Assembly: GCA_945882095.1 (NCBI GenBank)
Contig: CAMCWF010000001.1
Location: 1-64,000, forward strand
Origin: Chryseobacterium gleum
Lineage (GTDB): Bacteria > Bacteroidota > Bacteroidia > Flavobacteriales_D > Crocinitomicaceae
Length of the DNA stretch: 64,000 nt
Direction: 5' to 3'
The position numbers and the translations under genes are program-made. The notes under the pieces were generated by a model that was not told where the DNA came from, ran no database searches, and saw only the letters and a program-made list of their open reading frames with translations. Of the stretch, positions 41,015-47,602 are shown in pieces (the stretch's first letter is position 1; every line of letters starts with the position of its first letter).

Positions 41015-41953
41015 ATGGCAAAAACAATCATCATAGGCGCATGCGGTCAAATAGGTACCGAGCTCACGTTGGCACTGCGTCAAAAATACGGAAACGATCA
41101 GGTTATCGCGGCAGATTTGAAAGAAACCTGTCCTGAAATCCTCAACGAAGGCCCTTACGTTCAAATGGACATTTTGAACAAGGAATTTGTATGTGAATAC
41201 CTTAAAAACCATGAAATCACTACGGTTTACTTGCTCGCCGCTTTGTTGTCAGCGACCGCTGAGAAAAACCCGGCTTTTGCATGGAAATTAAACATGGAAG
41301 GACTGTTCACCATTTTGGACCTTGCCAAAGAAGGGTTTGTTAAAAAAATCTTTTGGCCCAGTTCGATTGCAGTATTCGGTCCCACCACCCCAGCAGACAA
41401 TACGCCTCAGCACACCATCATGGAACCCTCTACCGTTTACGGAATTTCAAAACAAGCAGGCGAACGTTGGTGCGAATATTATTTCAATACATTTGGCGTG
41501 GATGTCAGGAGCATTCGCTACCCAGGTTTGATTTCCTACAAAAGTTTACCCGGTGGAGGAACGACAGATTACGCGGTCGATATTTTCTACCAAGCAAAAA
41601 AGACTGGGAATTTCGAATGTTTCCTAAAGGAAGACACCGCCCTACCGATGATGTTTATGGAGGATGCCATCCATGCAACCCTGCAACTGATGGATGCCCC
41701 AAGTGAACAAATCAAGATCCGTTCAGCATATAACTTGGCTGGTATCAGCTTCAATCCGAAGACGCTTTCCGATGAAATCAAGAAACACATGCCTGAATTC
41801 GCCATTTCCTATGCGCCCGATTTTAGGCAAGCCATTGCAGACTCTTGGCCGAATTCTATAGACGACAGCTACGCTCAAAAAGATTGGGGATGGCAACACA
41901 AGTATGAATTAGCTGCTTTGGTAGATGTCATGCTGAAAAATGTATCCGTCTAA
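41015..41953 (+). CDS. short-chain L-threonine 3-dehydrogenase (NAD-dependent epimerase family)
   Basis: A 312-residue extended SDR enzyme. The Rossmann motif IIGACGQIGTELTLAL (about residues 5-20), catalytic Ser in FWPSSIAVFG and the YGISK catalytic pair are present. The stretch RYPGLISYKSLPGGGTTDYAVD is the hallmark of UDP-galactose-epimerase-like threonine dehydrogenases known from Cytophaga and Flavobacterium. It oxidises threonine to 2-amino-3-ketobutyrate. It is divergent from hmgA-hppD; a shared amino-acid catabolic theme is possible. Confidence 0.88.
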   Translation: MAKTIIIGACGQIGTELTLALRQKYGNDQVIAADLKETCPEILNEGPYVQMDILNKEFVCEYLKNHEITTVYLLAALLSATAEKNPAFAWKLNMEGLFTILDLAKEGFVKKIFWPSSIAVFGPTTPADNTPQHTIMEPSTVYGISKQAGERWCEYYFNTFGVDVRSIRYPGLISYKSLPGGGTTDYAVDIFYQAKKTGNFECFLKEDTALPMMFMEDAIHATLQLMDAPSEQIKIRSAYNLAGISFNPKTLSDEIKKHMPEFAISYAPDFRQAIADSWPNSIDDSYAQKDWGWQHKYELAALVDVMLKNVSV

Positions 41954-41965
41954 AAAAAAAAAATT

Positions 41966-42035
41966 CATTTTGTTTAATATTTTTTGTGATTTGTTAAACA
42001 CATTTTGTTTAACTTTGTAGCATCATTGTTAAACA
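41966..42035. promoter_or_regulatory. two tandem 35-bp palindromic operator units
   Basis: Units 41966-42000 and 42001-42035 each begin CATTTTGTTTAA and end TTGTTAAACA, with a diverged 13-bp centre. In each, TGTTTAA and TTAAACA form an inverted repeat separated by 16 bp. The second unit contains the -7 box (TAACTTTG, 42010-42017) and the likely transcription start of the sigma-carotenoid cluster, so a bound protein would block the promoter. A MerR/CarH-like regulator is a guess only; none is in the window. Confidence 0.7.
41990..42017 (+). promoter_or_regulatory. promoter of the sigma factor-carotenoid cluster
   Basis: TTTG at 41990-41993 and TAACTTTG at 42010-42017 (16-bp spacer) fit the Bacteroidota -33/-7 elements. 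The start codon is 24 nt after the -7 box. Confidence 0.6.
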
Positions 42036-42041
42036 GAATTT

Positions 42042-42554
42042 ATGTCAACCATAGAATTTAACGAAGCACTAACAGACCTTCAGGGGAATTTACAATCCTT
42101 TGCGTACAATTTCACCAGAAACCAAGAAGATGCTCAAGACCTTACCCAGGAAACTTTGCTGAAGGCGATATCCTACCGAAGTTATTACACGCCCAACACG
42201 AACTTTAAGGCATGGGTTTTTACCATCATGCGAAACATTTTCATCAACCAATACAGGAGAAAAGTTAAGTCGAGAACCATATTTGATTTTTCAAACGACG
42301 GGTATTTGATGGCGAACAACATGAGTACGCATGAATCGCCTTTGGAGCAGATTTCAGTAAAAGATATTTTACAAAAAATCGAAGGTTTGAATGACGAATT
42401 AAGGATTCCTTTCGAGATGCACTTCGAAGGATTCAAATATAAAGAGATAGCAATTCACTTAAATTTGCCAATTGGAACAATTAAGAGCCGTATCTTTATC
42501 GCGCGAAAAAAACTGATGGAACAACTTCCAGGTTATCATTTTTCGGCAAATTAA
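42042..42554 (+). CDS. RNA polymerase ECF-type sigma factor
   Basis: A 170-residue ECF sigma factor. Region 2 (NFTRNQEDAQDLTQETLLKAIS, FKAWVFTIMRNIFINQYRRK) and region 4 (IPFEMHFEGFKYKEIAIHLNLPIGTIKSRI) are complete. No anti-sigma gene is adjacent. It begins the cluster and its stop lies 1 bp before crtI, so it is probably co-transcribed with the carotenoid genes and may control them or its own promoter. Confidence 0.9.
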   Translation: MSTIEFNEALTDLQGNLQSFAYNFTRNQEDAQDLTQETLLKAISYRSYYTPNTNFKAWVFTIMRNIFINQYRRKVKSRTIFDFSNDGYLMANNMSTHESPLEQISVKDILQKIEGLNDELRIPFEMHFEGFKYKEIAIHLNLPIGTIKSRIFIARKKLMEQLPGYHFSAN

Positions 42555-42555
42555 T

Positions 42556-44031
42556 ATGAGCAAAAAGGCAACAGTATTAGGGGCAGGGATTTCCGGATTG
42601 TCCGCAGCGTCGTTTATGGCAAAAGCAGGTTGGGAAGTTACCATACTGGAGAAAAATTCCAGCATTGGAGGCCGCGCCCGACAATTCACAGAAATGGGGT
42701 TTACCTTCGACATGGGTCCAAGCTGGTATTGGATGCCCGATGTATTTGAAAGGTTTTACAACCAGTTTGGGCACACAGCCTCTGACTTTTACGAACTCAA
42801 ACGCTTGGATCCTTCTTACCGCGTTTACTGGCCTGACAAAACCTACACGGACATTCCCGCAGAATTATCCGCCTTGTGCGTTTGGTTCGAATCCCTTGAA
42901 GCCGGTAGCGCAAAAAAACTGGAGGCTTTTTTGGCTGAGGCAAAATATAAGTATGAAGTAGGTATGAAAGATTTGGTATACAAACCCAGCTTGAAACTTA
43001 CAGAATTTGTCGATTTCCGCCTGTTGAAAGGACTTTTTTCAATGGACTTAACAACCTCCTTTTCGAAGTACATCCGAAAGTACTTCTCCCATCCAAAAAT
43101 ACTATCGCTTTTGGAATTCCCTGTGCTGTTTTTAGGTGCTTTGCCTGAAGAAACACCTGCCTTGTATTCCCTTATGAACTATGCTGACATCGAATTGGGG
43201 ACTTGGTACCCAATGGGAGGGATGTATAAATTTATAGAAGCGTTTGAAAAAATTGCCGTTTCGCAAGGGGTTAAAATCATTACCAATGCGGAGGTGGTCG
43301 ACATTGAAAAAACAGGAAAAAATGCAACTGCAGCAGTACTTGCAGATGGTACTCGGTATGAAAGTGATGTATTCATTTCCAGTGCGGATTATCACCACAC
43401 AGACAAAAACATTTTAAAGGATGCGTCCAATTATTCTGATGCCTATTGGGATAAAAAAACGATGGCGCCTTCTTGCTTGATTTATTACATCGGACTGACG
43501 GAACGCGTAAAGAATTTGGAACATCACAACTTGTTTTTTGACAAGAGCCTCGCAGTGCATGGAAAAGAAATTTACAAAACCCCGATTTGGCCAAGCGATC
43601 CTTTGTTTTATATGAGTGTGCCCTCCCTTACAGACCCTACCCTTGCGCCTGAAGGAATGGAAAACCTATTTTTCTTAATTCCGATTGCACCGAATTTACC
43701 AGACAACGAAGAAACGCGTCAACAGTATTTTGAAAAAATTACAGAAAGATTGTTTGAACTCACCGGCAATGACATCCGAGGTAAAATCGCTTACCAAAAA
43801 AGTTATTCGATTACGGATTTTAAGAAAGATTATCACGCCTTCAAAGGAAATGCGTACGGATTGGCAAATACGCTAAACCAAACCGCCATCTTCAAACCCC
43901 GCATCAAAAGCAAACATTTGAAAAACTTCTATTTTACAGGCCAACTTACCGTACCAGGTCCGGGCGTGCCACCGTGCATTGTTTCAGGAGAGGTTGTTGC
44001 GAATGAAATTAATAAAAACTTTCGCCTATGA
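42556..44031 (+). CDS. crtI: phytoene desaturase
   Basis: A 491-residue FAD-dependent desaturase that turns phytoene into lycopene or a related polyene. The dinucleotide motif VLGAGISGLSAASFMAKAG and IGGRARQFTEMGF lie at the N-terminus, and the C-terminal FAD motif (YFTGQLTVPGPGVPPCIVSGE) is typical of CrtI. It overlaps crtB by 4 nt. No cyclase or hydroxylase gene follows, so the end product is not known from this window. Confidence 0.93.
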   Translation: MSKKATVLGAGISGLSAASFMAKAGWEVTILEKNSSIGGRARQFTEMGFTFDMGPSWYWMPDVFERFYNQFGHTASDFYELKRLDPSYRVYWPDKTYTDIPAELSALCVWFESLEAGSAKKLEAFLAEAKYKYEVGMKDLVYKPSLKLTEFVDFRLLKGLFSMDLTTSFSKYIRKYFSHPKILSLLEFPVLFLGALPEETPALYSLMNYADIELGTWYPMGGMYKFIEAFEKIAVSQGVKIITNAEVVDIEKTGKNATAAVLADGTRYESDVFISSADYHHTDKNILKDASNYSDAYWDKKTMAPSCLIYYIGLTERVKNLEHHNLFFDKSLAVHGKEIYKTPIWPSDPLFYMSVPSLTDPTLAPEGMENLFFLIPIAPNLPDNEETRQQYFEKITERLFELTGNDIRGKIAYQKSYSITDFKKDYHAFKGNAYGLANTLNQTAIFKPRIKSKHLKNFYFTGQLTVPGPGVPPCIVSGEVVANEINKNFRL

Positions 44032-44864
44032 AAATGACTTTCGATGAACTGAGTATCGAAATGAGTACACTGACCACAAAGAAATACAGTACCTCTTTCT
44101 CATTAGGAATAAAAACACTGAACAAAGACCTACAAAAACCGATTTATGCAATCTATGGCTTTGTTCGATTTGCTGACGAAATCGTAGACTCATTTCAAGC
44201 ATACGATTCCCTGGTTTTGTTAGAAGATTTCAAAGCGCAAACCTACCGTGCCATTGAACAAAAGATATCCCTCAACCCCATCTTGAATAGCTTTCAATGG
44301 GTGGTAAACAAGTACCAAATTCCGATGGAGTTAATTGAGACCTTTCTCGCTTCCATGGAAATGGACCTTACCGAACATGACTACGACGAAGAAAAATACA
44401 AGCTGTACATTCTTGGTTCTGCGGAGGTTGTTGGCTTAATGTGTTTGAAAGTCTTTGTCTCCGGCGATGAACAAGAATACAACAGACTGAAAGATGCAGC
44501 TATGAAACTTGGTTCTGCCTTTCAAAAAATTAATTTTTTACGCGATTTAAATGCAGATTTCCACCACCTCGGAAGGGTGTATTTCCCTGGAATTGCGATG
44601 GAACATTTTAACGATGAAATAAAAGCATCCATTGAAGTTGACATCGAAAAAGATTTTCAAGAAGGCTTCTTAGGCATTCAACAGTTGCCAAAAAAGGCAC
44701 GCGCTGGGGTATATTTGGCGTATCAATACTATTACAAACTTTTCCTGAAAATTAAAAAAACGTCAGCAGAAGTTATCCTGAACGAACGCATTCGTATACC
44801 GAACAACAAGAAAATCCAAATCCTTCTTGCTTCTTACTTTAAGAATAATTTAAACCTACTATGA
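44028..44864 (+). CDS. crtB: phytoene synthase
   Basis: A 278-residue squalene/phytoene synthase that joins two geranylgeranyl diphosphates into phytoene. The two aspartate-rich motifs are visible (FVRFADEIVDSF near residue 45 and NFLRDLNADFHHLGRVYFP near 170). It overlaps crtI before and idi after by 4 nt each, giving a translationally coupled chain. Confidence 0.93.
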   Translation: MKMTFDELSIEMSTLTTKKYSTSFSLGIKTLNKDLQKPIYAIYGFVRFADEIVDSFQAYDSLVLLEDFKAQTYRAIEQKISLNPILNSFQWVVNKYQIPMELIETFLASMEMDLTEHDYDEEKYKLYILGSAEVVGLMCLKVFVSGDEQEYNRLKDAAMKLGSAFQKINFLRDLNADFHHLGRVYFPGIAMEHFNDEIKASIEVDIEKDFQEGFLGIQQLPKKARAGVYLAYQYYYKLFLKIKKTSAEVILNERIRIPNNKKIQILLASYFKNNLNLL

Positions 44865-45391
44865 GCATGCAATCCGTCATCTTGGTGGATGAACATGACA
44901 ACGCGTTAGGCTCCATGGAAAAAATGGAAGCCCACCACGAGGGAAAGCTTCACAGGGCGTTTTCTGTCTTTATTTTCAACGGTAACAACGAATTGCTTTT
45001 ACAAAAAAGAGCATTAGGAAAATACCATTCTGAAGGATTGTGGACCAACACTTGCTGCAGTCACCCCTCACCTGGAGAAACCGTAATCGAAGCCGCAAAC
45101 AGAAGGCTACAAGAAGAAATGGGATTGCAAACCTTTTTGACAACACTGTTTCACTTTACCTATTTCGCTGAACTTGACAATCAATTAATTGAACACGAAC
45201 TTGACCACGTGCTCATTGGCCATTCGGATGATGAACCCAAGCTCAACCCATTGGAAGTTTCTGAATATCGTTGGGAATCCGTAGATGCAATAAAGAAAGA
45301 AATGGAGGCTAATCCTGAACAATTCACAGTATGGTTTAAGAAAATCATTTTGGAATATCAACAAAAATTTAAACAAACAACATTCGCATGA
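44861..45391 (+). CDS. idi: isopentenyl-diphosphate delta-isomerase, type 1
   Basis: A 176-residue Nudix-fold type 1 isomerase that converts isopentenyl to dimethylallyl diphosphate, feeding carotenoid precursors. The catalytic Cys is in TNTCCSHPSPGE and the catalytic glutamate region is IEHELDHVLIG. It overlaps crtB and the pterin-synthase gene by 4 nt each, which fits co-production for pigment synthesis. Confidence 0.93.
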   Translation: MSMQSVILVDEHDNALGSMEKMEAHHEGKLHRAFSVFIFNGNNELLLQKRALGKYHSEGLWTNTCCSHPSPGETVIEAANRRLQEEMGLQTFLTTLFHFTYFAELDNQLIEHELDHVLIGHSDDEPKLNPLEVSEYRWESVDAIKKEMEANPEQFTVWFKKIILEYQQKFKQTTFA

Positions 45392-45792
45392 AAATCGTAA
45401 GAAGAGTAACATTCAACTCAGCACATAGACTTTACCGCAAGGATTGGAGTGATGAAAAAAACCAAGAAGTATTTGGCCTTTGCAACAACCCGAATTTTCA
45501 TGGACATAATTATGTTATGGAAGTAGGCATTGAAGGACCCATTGACCCTGAAACGGGATTCATTTTAGACGTGAAAGTCATCAAACGCATTCTTTCGGAA
45601 GAAATCATCGAGCGCTTCGACCATCGCAACCTCAACCTAGACTGTCCAGAATTTCATTCTTTAAATCCCACGGTTGAAAACATTGCATGTGTATGCTACG
45701 ATCTACTGGAACCTAGGTTTTCTCAGTATGGAAAGCTGTCGCTTAAATTGTATGAAACCGAAAGCAACTGGGTAGAATACGCCGGGAAATAA
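45388..45792 (+). CDS. 6-pyruvoyl-tetrahydropterin synthase/QueD-family protein
   Basis: A 134-residue enzyme of the PTPS/6-carboxy-tetrahydropterin-synthase family. Zinc ligands are visible in FNSAHR and FHGHNY (His at about 13, 39 and 41), the catalytic Cys in GLCNNPNFHGH, and further active-site parts in FDHRNLN, PTVENIA and YETESN. It could act in queuosine, folate or biopterin synthesis. Its place, coupled to idi by 4 nt and directly before the photolyase, suggests supply of a pterin cofactor, which is inference. Confidence 0.85.
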   Translation: MKIVRRVTFNSAHRLYRKDWSDEKNQEVFGLCNNPNFHGHNYVMEVGIEGPIDPETGFILDVKVIKRILSEEIIERFDHRNLNLDCPEFHSLNPTVENIACVCYDLLEPRFSQYGKLSLKLYETESNWVEYAGK

Positions 45793-45842: not shown

Positions 45843-47141
45843 ATGACAAAATCTATTTTTTGGCACCGTAGAGATTTACGCATCGAAGACAATGCCGGAT
45901 TGTACAAAGCCTGTACTAAGTCCGAAGCGGTGCAGCCTGTGTTTATTTTTGACACACAAATTTTAAGTGAATTGGAACCCAACGATGCAAGGGTTGAATT
46001 TATCCATGAACAAATTGAAAGGCTTGCTACAGAATATAAAAACCTTGGGGTATGTCTTCAAGTAGAAATAGGAAACCCGACAGAAATCATTCCTCGCCTC
46101 GCTGCGGAACTGAACGTAGATACAGTCGTGACCAACCGCGATTACGAACCCTATGCCTTGCAGCGCGACAAACACATTCACGAATTGTTGAAAGCACAAG
46201 GAATTGAATTTATTGGCGCAAAGGACCACGTGGTTTTCGAGAAAAATGAGGTTGTTAAAGCCGATGGCTTACCCTACACTGTATTCACGCCCTATTCCCG
46301 AAAATGGAAGGAAGCCCTTTCACAACACCCTATTCAATCCTACGATTCTGTCGCATCACTGCGTTCGGTAAAGGGAATTGCAATGGAAAAACCAATACCC
46401 ACCTTACTGCAATTGGGATTCACCCCTTCTGGAATTTCTTTTCCAACCACCCGCGTCGAGGACCTTTTGATAGAAAAATACAGCGACCAAAGGAATTTTC
46501 CCGCCATTCCAGGAACCTCTAAACTTGGCCTTCACTTGCGATTTGGAACCTTGAGCATCAGAAAACTTGTCATGCGCGCTTGTGGTTTAAACGAAACCTT
46601 TTTGAACGAACTCATTTGGCGAGAGTTTTACCAAATGATCATTTTCCATTTTCCACATACCGTAACCAAGGCTTTTAAACCCGTATACGATGCCATCGTT
46701 TGGGAAAACAATCCCAAGGATTTTCAGCGCTGGTGCGAAGGAACAACTGGCTATCCACTTGTAGATGCAGGCATGCGAGAACTTAACGCGACGGGGTTTA
46801 TGCACAACCGTGTACGCATGGTAACCTCAAGTTTCCTAACAAAGCATCTTTTGATTGATTGGCGTCAAGGAGAGGCGTATTTTGCCAAAAAACTACTCGA
46901 TTTTGAACTGGCCAGCAACGTCGGTGGATGGCAGTGGGCAGCAGGTTCTGGCACGGATGCAGCGCCTTATTTTCGTGTGTTTAATCCTACTGCTCAACAA
47001 GAAAAGTTTGACCCCAAATTTGCCTATGTAAAAAGGTGGGTGCCAGAATTTGGTACACCCGCCTACCCAAAACCCATTGTTGAACATAGCTTTGCAAGAA
47101 ATAGAATTTTAGAACGGTACAAAAGTGCATTAAACCCATAA
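45843..47141 (+). CDS. phr: class I deoxyribodipyrimidine photolyase
   Basis: A 432-residue cryptochrome/photolyase-family enzyme that repairs UV-made pyrimidine dimers with light. The N-terminal antenna domain (WHRRDLRIEDNAGLYKA, FIFDTQIL) and the C-terminal FAD domain (LHLRFGTLSIR, ELIWREFYQMI, HNRVRMVTSSFLTKHLLIDWR, NVGGWQWAAGSGTDAAPYFRVFNP) are complete. It follows the pterin synthase by 50 bp and precedes a peroxiredoxin by 2 bp, consistent with a photoprotection cluster. Confidence 0.93.
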   Translation: MTKSIFWHRRDLRIEDNAGLYKACTKSEAVQPVFIFDTQILSELEPNDARVEFIHEQIERLATEYKNLGVCLQVEIGNPTEIIPRLAAELNVDTVVTNRDYEPYALQRDKHIHELLKAQGIEFIGAKDHVVFEKNEVVKADGLPYTVFTPYSRKWKEALSQHPIQSYDSVASLRSVKGIAMEKPIPTLLQLGFTPSGISFPTTRVEDLLIEKYSDQRNFPAIPGTSKLGLHLRFGTLSIRKLVMRACGLNETFLNELIWREFYQMIIFHFPHTVTKAFKPVYDAIVWENNPKDFQRWCEGTTGYPLVDAGMRELNATGFMHNRVRMVTSSFLTKHLLIDWRQGEAYFAKKLLDFELASNVGGWQWAAGSGTDAAPYFRVFNPTAQQEKFDPKFAYVKRWVPEFGTPAYPKPIVEHSFARNRILERYKSALNP

Positions 47142-47143
47142 TC

Positions 47144-47602
47144 ATGTTAAAAATCGGAGACCCCTGTCCTACTTTCACCTTGGTGAATCAAGAAAATAAA
47201 GAAATCAACCTTGCAGATTTCATCGGAAAAAAAATTCTTGTCGTGTATTTCTATCCAAAGGACAATACGCCTGGATGCACGAAAGAAGCCTGCAGTTTCC
47301 GGGACCGTTACGAAGATTTCAAAGACCTTGGATGTGAAGTTTTTGGCATTTCTTCGGACGATGCGAAATCTCATCAAACCTTTAGCACGCAATACAACCT
47401 ACCTTTTTCTTTGCTATCCGATTCGGACCAAAAGGTTAGAAAAGCATTTGAAGTGCCCACGAATCTTTTTGGACTTTTGCCGGGCAGAGTCACCTACATT
47501 ATCGATTTAGCGGGGAAAATTCAAGGGATTTACAACAGCCAAACGCAACCGGTGAAACACATCACACAAGCGTTGGACAAAGTGAAATCCATGATTGCCT
47601 AG
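47144..47602 (+). CDS. bcp: thioredoxin-dependent thiol peroxidase (BCP-type peroxiredoxin)
   Basis: A 152-residue peroxiredoxin that reduces peroxides. The active-site motif FYPKDNTPGCTKEACSFRD holds the peroxidatic Cys (about 45) and the nearby resolving Cys (about 50) of the BCP/PrxQ group. It begins 2 bp after the photolyase stop, so it belongs to the same transcript and may protect against photo-oxidative stress. Confidence 0.93.
   Translation: MLKIGDPCPTFTLVNQENKEINLADFIGKKILVVYFYPKDNTPGCTKEACSFRDRYEDFKDLGCEVFGISSDDAKSHQTFSTQYNLPFSLLSDSDQKVRKAFEVPTNLFGLLPGRVTYIIDLAGKIQGIYNSQTQPVKHITQALDKVKSMIA

Follow-up and report, generated by a model that had tools for sequence, protein, structure and literature searches.

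A 70-bp element in front of a carotenoid gene run, at positions 41966 to 42035 of the window (the whole 64,000-nucleotide stretch of DNA analyzed here), is most likely a two-module operator for a MerR regulator of the CarH/LitR type. The regulator would be a 299-residue protein encoded elsewhere in the same genome, acting as a dark-state repressor under B12-type control by light. Binding by this protein, repression rather than activation, dependence on cobalamin and light, and cooperation between the two units are what we infer from the sequence. A wider picture, in our judgment about equally likely to be right or wrong, is an undescribed light regulon of Bacteroidota, in which a B12-type photoreceptor repressor would read a wide 30-bp inverted repeat rather than direct repeats, two assemblies, phased in whole helical turns with the promoter and with one another, would lock the crt promoter, and rhodopsin phototrophy, photolyase, and pterin supply would be set together.

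The two units abut on the + strand, at 41966 to 42000 and 42001 to 42035. Each is 35 bp long, reads CATTTTGTTTAA-N13-TTGTTAAACA, and carries a left arm TGTTTAA and a right arm TTAAACA separated by a gap of 16 bp (arms at 41971 to 41977 and 41994 to 42000 in unit 1 and at 42006 to 42012 and 42029 to 42035 in unit 2). A preliminary description of this DNA had proposed such a palindrome in each unit, and it was present at both positions; the proposed half-site spacing of 23, 12, and 23 bp was likewise reproduced from the arm coordinates, as the distances between arm centers. The same description had spoken of an exact tandem 35-bp unit. Its coordinates hold and the arms are identical, but the whole units match at only 25 of 35 bases (the first 12 and the last 10 are shared), so the repeat is called exact for the arms only. 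A -7 promoter box of the TAnnTTTG type, TAACTTTG, lies at 42010 to 42017 on the + strand, within unit 2 as had been claimed (consensus taken from PMC9723704, in part), and unit 2 probably covers the transcription start as well. In overlapping the core promoter, with the -7 box within unit 2, the inverted repeat has the form of a MerR-type palindromic operator. Unit 1 begins 12 bases past the end of the upstream ORF, an epimerase gene. A run of 12 A residues at 41952 to 41963, directly 5' of unit 1, is possibly an UP-like element.

The first gene after the operator encodes an ECF-type sigma factor (42042 to 42554; Sigma70_r2 and Sigma70_r4_2 over the cut-off). It is followed, also on the + strand, by genes for a crtI-type phytoene desaturase (42556 to 44031; NCBIfam CrtID, 704 bits versus a cut-off of 640), a crtB-type phytoene synthase (44028 to 44864; SQS_PSY, 1.4e-42), an isopentenyl-diphosphate isomerase of the Nudix type (44861 to 45391; NF002995 and TIGR02150 over the cut-off), a 6-pyruvoyl-tetrahydropterin synthase (PTPS) family protein (45388 to 45792; PF01242, 1.8e-31), and a DNA photolyase (45843 to 47141; PF00875 and PF03441). 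The crtB-type protein scores below the CrtB and HpnD equivalog cut-offs and is named by its position after crtI. The genes from the ECF factor to the photolyase presumably form one operon, of which a peroxiredoxin-like (bcp) ORF at 47144 to 47602 (+ strand; name read from the sequence alone) may be the last gene.

The pattern TGTTTAA-N16-TTAAACA has three exact copies in the 2.35-Mb assembly of the genome (G000, 96.7% complete), versus no exact match there for a reversed control pattern. Two of these are the crt units, and the third precedes a rhodopsin gene. Across 120 genomes of the family, the exact pattern was found 221 times, versus 13 for the reversed control (tallied by eye). Five dinucleotide shuffles of each of the 150 upstream regions described below gave no unit at a gap of 16, versus 149 in the real sequences. 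When up to three mismatches were allowed, there was no excess in the window (13 matches versus 10.9 expected) or in the genome (384 versus 502 for the control), and the half-site TTGTTWAAC was weakly enriched in the window (7 versus 3.5). The distinctive feature is the complete exact arrangement only. A one-mismatch copy at 57 to 86 of locus L004 (G000:C35) lies within a long Gly-rich coding frame and is taken as chance.

In total, 182 loci were examined, 150 with and 32 without a match to the window's ECF factor. The 150 ECF upstreams form 67 ECF80 clusters and are not independent, because the window's own promoter entered twice (L078 and L291) and some loci share sequences. At L152 to L213 the ECF match is 39 to 51% identical and the link to crt rests on crtI as the locus query; at L294 to L333 the ECF gene and its upstream region were covered, crt genes aside. 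Conservation in the crt promoters of relatives, on which the earlier proposal was in part to stand or fall, was found: 120 of the 150 ECF upstreams, mostly those of crt operons, keep at least one exact unit (gap of 16 or 17), and it is absent from 30. With up to two mismatches allowed per unit, 105 of the 150 had two units, 44 had one, and one had none. Exact arms stood at a gap of 16 in 149 cases, of 17 in 27, and of 15 in one, and none were found at gaps of 10 to 14 or 18 to 23 in these upstreams. Named loci with units include those of Crocinitomicaceae/Cryomorphaceae, Sediminibacterium, other Chitinophagaceae, Pontibacter, Algoriphagus, Belliella, and Marivirga; two Hymenobacter loci had no exact unit. 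A phylum search for two exact units 0 to 30 bp apart, which is an overly strict criterion, returned 4 of 395 genomes.

The element can also be read as direct repeats of TTGTTWAAC spaced 21, 14, and 21 bp, which is conceivable because GTTWAAC is nearly self-palindromic. This reading was rejected, since the orientation of the arms is fixed: all 149 gap-16 units carry inverted arms, TGTTTAA on the left and TTAAACA on the right. Arms of the form TGTTAAA or TTTAACA occurred in the 150 upstreams not once at a gap of 16 and twice at a gap of 17, beside 27 standard ones.

The regulator, left as unknown in the preliminary description, can be narrowed to one CarH-like gene outside the window (G000:C10:22905-23801). 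It encodes a protein of 299 residues with MerR and B12-binding parts and is the only CarH-like gene found in the genome, which has two MerR_1 genes, the second (L016) encoding a short MerR protein. An N-terminal MerR winged helix (PF13411, 2.8e-13) and a four-helix cobalamin cap (B12-binding_2; PF02607, 4.2e-9) were both over the cut-off. The C-terminal Rossmann B12 domain stayed below the Pfam cut-off (20.1 versus 32.1) and was recognized by its fold, with model residues 83 to 290 matching CarH. The AlphaFold model (pLDDT 90.4) matched CarH (5c8d) at 5.0e-15 in Foldseek, and in VIA-align its cobalamin part aligned to CarH with a Z score of 18.2 and an rmsd of 2.3 over 197 residues; domains of light-independent methionine synthase (MetH) and AppA also match the model, with Z scores of 14 to 15. 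Superposition of the whole chain on CarH was poor (TM 0.57, rmsd 9.3). By sequence, the protein matched the CarH/LitR of T. thermophilus in the PDB (about 6e-21). The NCBIfam CarH equivalog NF052513 was not reached (103.6 versus a cut-off of 400 bits), so the protein is filed as CarH/LitR-like and not as CarH itself.

The same operator and protein could nevertheless work independently of B12 or under another trigger, such as a partner protein, singlet oxygen, or cobalamin supply, in the manner of CarA or class II LitR; we regard this as unlikely. The motif W-x9-EH and the lower-ligand His, taken here as the cobalamin-contact residues, argue against it: in 58 regulator sequences, the own protein included, W is kept in 55, E and H in 58 each, and the lower His in all 58. 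The last Gly of ExHxxG is Ser in the own protein and Ser, Gly, and Ala in 28, 26, and 4 of the 58, respectively. A cob(I)alamin adenosyltransferase family gene in the same genome also speaks for the use of B12. On the other side, CarA carries a canonical B12 motif that it does not need (PMC8156234, in part), CarA binds without B12, and class II LitR acts through a LOV partner (PMC8156234 and PMC9758184, in part). In addition, the position of T. thermophilus His132 is Leu in the own protein and His in 0 of the 58 sequences, so that, unlike in T. thermophilus CarH, the residue of the bis-His light state is missing here. This position, however, varies among other light-responsive cobalamin proteins (PMC11796333, in part).

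For the B12-dependent repressor that we prefer, the following sequence of events is proposed. While it is dark, both 30-bp inverted repeats would be occupied by the regulator, which would probably carry adenosylcobalamin. Its presence on unit 2 would mask the -7 box and the transcription start, keeping the ECF-crtI-crtB-idi-PTPS-photolyase genes off. Light would break the cobalamin bond and release the regulator. The pigment, pterin, and photolyase genes would then be turned on, as would the rhodopsin gene through its single unit.

Activation instead of repression, by a classical MerR-like remodeling of a promoter with a weak -33 element, is in our estimate slightly less probable still than a B12-independent regulator. 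Most members of the MerR family activate at long-spacer promoters (PMC9478572, in part), no conserved -33 box was evident by eye in the class alignments, and both the lone rhodopsin unit and unit 1 lie, again by eye, upstream of a -7-like box. Unit 2, in contrast, spans the -7 box and probably also the point where transcription starts, and a protein bound there would block the polymerase; CarH, CarA, and PmlR2, too, are described as repressors (PMC9304148 and PMC9758184, in part).

Across genomes, the exact operator goes together with the protein. With CarH-like proteins called at an E value of at most 1e-20, it was found in 89 of the 97 family genomes that encode the protein versus 4 of the 23 that do not (Fisher 2.5e-12, n = 120, kinship between genomes ignored), 3 of the 23 being counted as negative from their absence among the matches listed. 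The four regulator-negative genomes with an exact operator are 59 to 83% complete. Ten genomes at least 92% complete, from six genera (g2, g7, g10, g11, g15, and g19), are without either, and their congeners have both. Of the 97 regulator-positive family genomes, eight lack an exact site, four of them belonging to g7 and two to g2; degenerate sites, as at L105, may explain some of these. In a phylum sample of 395 genomes, CarH-like genes were found in 78, two of them from the own genus. With the own genus left out, the exact site occurred in 56 of 76 genomes with the protein, 20 being without it, versus 3 of 78 without the protein, negatives that were picked by hand (28 from the same class and 50 from others), are mostly absent among the matches listed, and are not matched to the positives in base composition. 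The reversed control matched 12 of the 76 positive and 3 of the 78 negative genomes (by eye), so chance hits are somewhat more likely among the positives.

An exact unit (spacer of 16 or 17) lay within 1.5 kb of the regulator gene at 6 of the 30 family loci and at 17 of the 28 phylum loci. In the genome of the window, the regulator gene is unlinked, and no operator was found in the 250 bp upstream of it. Taken as a predicted binder, a MerR/LitR-type protein, which had been suggested from the promoter, is supported by co-occurrence, adjacency, and domain content. In genus g11, the regulator gene and an exact site are close together in seven genomes (G010, G046, G059, G088, G104, G112, and G118), and G030, G070, and G096 have neither.

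The same comparison bears on the ECF sigma factor, to which the operator could belong through autoregulation, or on some other transcription factor as owner of the site. The ECF gene is the first one downstream, both here and in the relatives that have it. However, the exact operator occurs in 30 of 31 family genomes that have the regulator and no ECF match (1e-20). Four genomes have the ECF factor and no regulator; G043 and G078 (99% complete) are without the site, and G028 (82% complete) and G101 (80%) each have an exact one. Moreover, 4 of 30 phylum loci (L380, L384, L385, and L388) show the order regulator-operator-crtI with no ECF match, so the ECF factor is not a needed part of the system. 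The operator tracks the CarH-like regulator, not the ECF factor; it persists without the latter and is missing with it alone (G043 and G078), and the ECF factor was rejected as the binder, this whole reading being very improbable. At the four regulator-operator-crtI loci, one or two bases lie between the operator and the crtI match. The LitR-LitS circuit of Streptomyces puts an ECF factor linked to crt genes under the control of a light regulator. The present case differs from that circuit in phylum, and the ECF gene here heads the crt gene run and is without a match in some relatives. A structural role of the palindromes in RNA or DNA, such as termination of the epimerase gene that ends just ahead of unit 1, is hardly credible and was rejected, since the units are conserved before unrelated genes with other neighbors, the arms are weak and A+T, and the site tracks one DNA-binding protein.

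The CarH proteins of T. thermophilus, Bacillus megaterium, and Myxococcales share with the CarH/LitR-like regulator a MerR DNA-binding domain and a cobalamin-binding domain of the same fold, and their operator likewise lies across the core promoter of a carotenoid operon. TAAACA, the half-site found here, also fits the TnnACA core of the CarH repeats (PMC9304148 and PMC8156234, in part). In T. thermophilus and B. megaterium, however, the CarH operators consist of three and four tandem 11-bp direct repeats, respectively (same sources, in part), whereas the present operator is built of two modules, each a 30-bp inverted repeat, with no such tandem repeats; exact TTAAACA direct repeats at 11 bp were found in 0 of the 150 upstreams (exact half-sites searched). 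Unlike with CarH, the operon here is led by an ECF factor, and the gene set includes rhodopsin. The CarA operator at Pcrt of Myxococcus xanthus, which is about 55 bp long and bound cooperatively by two dimers (PMC9304148 and PMC8156234, in part), is similar in layout: it has two modules, with one inverted repeat upstream of the promoter and one overlapping it. There, CarA is suggested to read direct repeats (same sources, in part), whereas the inverted arrangement here is kept across distant relatives.

Class II LitR of Pseudomonas (PplR1 and PmlR2), basically a repressor, also has two sites at the promoter studied, and its light-inducible set holds photolyase, folE, and cryptochrome genes (PMC9758184, in part). 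Unlike the present operator, its site is TGTACA-N12-TGTACA, with 18 bp between arm centers versus 23 here; unlike the present regulator, it has no more of the B12 domain than the four-helix part and serves as the effector of a LOV photoreceptor (same source, in part). MliR of Bizionia, a MerR protein without an effector domain that is tied to iron (PMC9478572, in part), was rejected as a member of the regulator's family. Earlier work mentions a MerR gene within a flavobacterial crt cluster (PMC11855829, in part). Neither this operator nor any CarH/LitR operator of Bacteroidota, nor the gene set behind it, was found in the PMC literature among the matches listed, subscription papers aside. A CarH/LitR-like regulator acting on this site would use a new type of operator, being neither the direct repeats of CarH nor the LitR site of Pseudomonas.

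A study of a Chryseobacterium whose carotenoids are induced by light found neither car nor lit genes and proposed an unknown regulator (PMC7064467, in part). For the light control of rhodopsin, carotenoid, and repair genes in Bacteroidota, a candidate regulator, an exact site, and a predicted gene set are supplied here, and the candidate applies to the many relatives that carry it. If true, this would be a second way in which the CarH fold reads DNA, of relevance to the assembly of B12 photoreceptors on DNA, and the system could serve as an optogenetic part for Bacteroidota.

The preliminary description had placed the two units on a fixed helical register. One sequence gives no such register, because 35 bp is 3.3 turns and not a whole number; the spacing classes of relatives, about 10 bp apart, do fit the idea, but came about through only some five changes. 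With unit pairs called at up to two mismatches per unit, the distance between unit centers was 33 to 35.5 bp at 51 loci (20 ECF80 clusters), 44 to 46 bp at 10 loci (4 clusters), 51 to 57.5 bp at 23 loci (15 clusters), and 63 to 65 bp at 20 loci (12 clusters), with one outlier at 95 bp. The best period was 10.0 bp (R 0.81 over 51 ECF80 clusters, as high in 0 of 2,000 uniform draws), a periodicity sought only after the data were seen; smaller sets gave P values of 0.0035 (13 clusters) and 0.069 (10 ECF55 clusters). A quick ECF tree, weak at many of its branches and with near-copies limited to two per ECF80 cluster and class, requires at least five changes to account for the classes.

The -7 box offers a rival cause for this spacing. 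In 51 representatives, TAnnTTTG starts at -6 (11 cases), +4 (13), +14/+15 (4), or -19 (2) relative to the left arm of unit 2 and is not found in 21; the offset of the window (+4) is shared by 8 of 20 cluster representatives in the 34 class and 5 of 15 in the 55 class. The registers -6, +4, and +14/15 each reuse operator bases (flank TTTG, arm TA, and flank TTTG, respectively), and steps near 10 bp could therefore arise without phasing. Phasing as proof of cooperativity is weakened by this base sharing, and helical phasing is held as suggestive only. Less exposed to the objection is how far the -7 box stands from the left arm of unit 1, about 37 to 40 bp in the 34 class and about 55 to 62 bp in the others. 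Seven exact pairs at other places, spaced 42 (five pairs), 43, and 54 bp, fit the 10-bp classes roughly; of the five with an assigned gene, four are at PTPS genes and one is near crtI. Helix-phased cooperation between the units is plausible on these spacings.

The third site of the genome (G000:C2:31318-31347) is centered 117 bp from the start of a gene for a 238-aa rhodopsin. Among 23 family rhodopsin upstreams, the own included and three partial loci left out, 9 have an exact unit (spacer of 16 or 17) within 250 bp and 15 have a unit at up to one mismatch; in 6, nothing closer than three mismatches was found. At L127 (G052:C6), a single rhodopsin gene is preceded by three units, of which two abut and one has a spacer of 17.

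The genes behind the sites were surveyed at 92 selected loci, which hold 100 distinct exact sites among the matches listed. The start of a target-class gene, regardless of orientation, lies within 500 bp of 83 of the 100 sites, a count that describes the set and does not test it, because the target classes were drawn from the sites themselves. The targets were ECF (16), PTPS (13), TetR-type (7), CarH-like (6), fasciclin (6), photolyase (5), rhodopsin (4), crtI (3), crtB (3), SDR (3), GPx (3), a 162-aa family without a Pfam match (3), DXS (2), TonB-type receptor (2), SOUL (2), DUF4397 (2), GCH1 (1), CRP-like (1), and BBP2 (1). Genes related to light, with pterin and photolyase genes among them, had been proposed as targets from the window; this is supported, with sites before PTPS, GTP cyclohydrolase I, and photolyase genes. 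Class II LitR makes the photolyase, folE, and cryptochrome genes of Pseudomonas putida inducible by light, and the P. mendocina cluster includes an SDR gene (PMC9758184, in part). The occurrence of one and the same site before pigment, rhodopsin, DNA-repair, and pterin genes of many related bacteria points to what would be a shared sunlight-response switch. Genus g19 has an enlarged set, with 10 sites in G052, 9 in G083, and 8 each in G075 and G107; they precede fasciclin, SOUL, glutathione peroxidase, SDR, TetR-type, and PTPS genes and the 162-aa family without a Pfam match.
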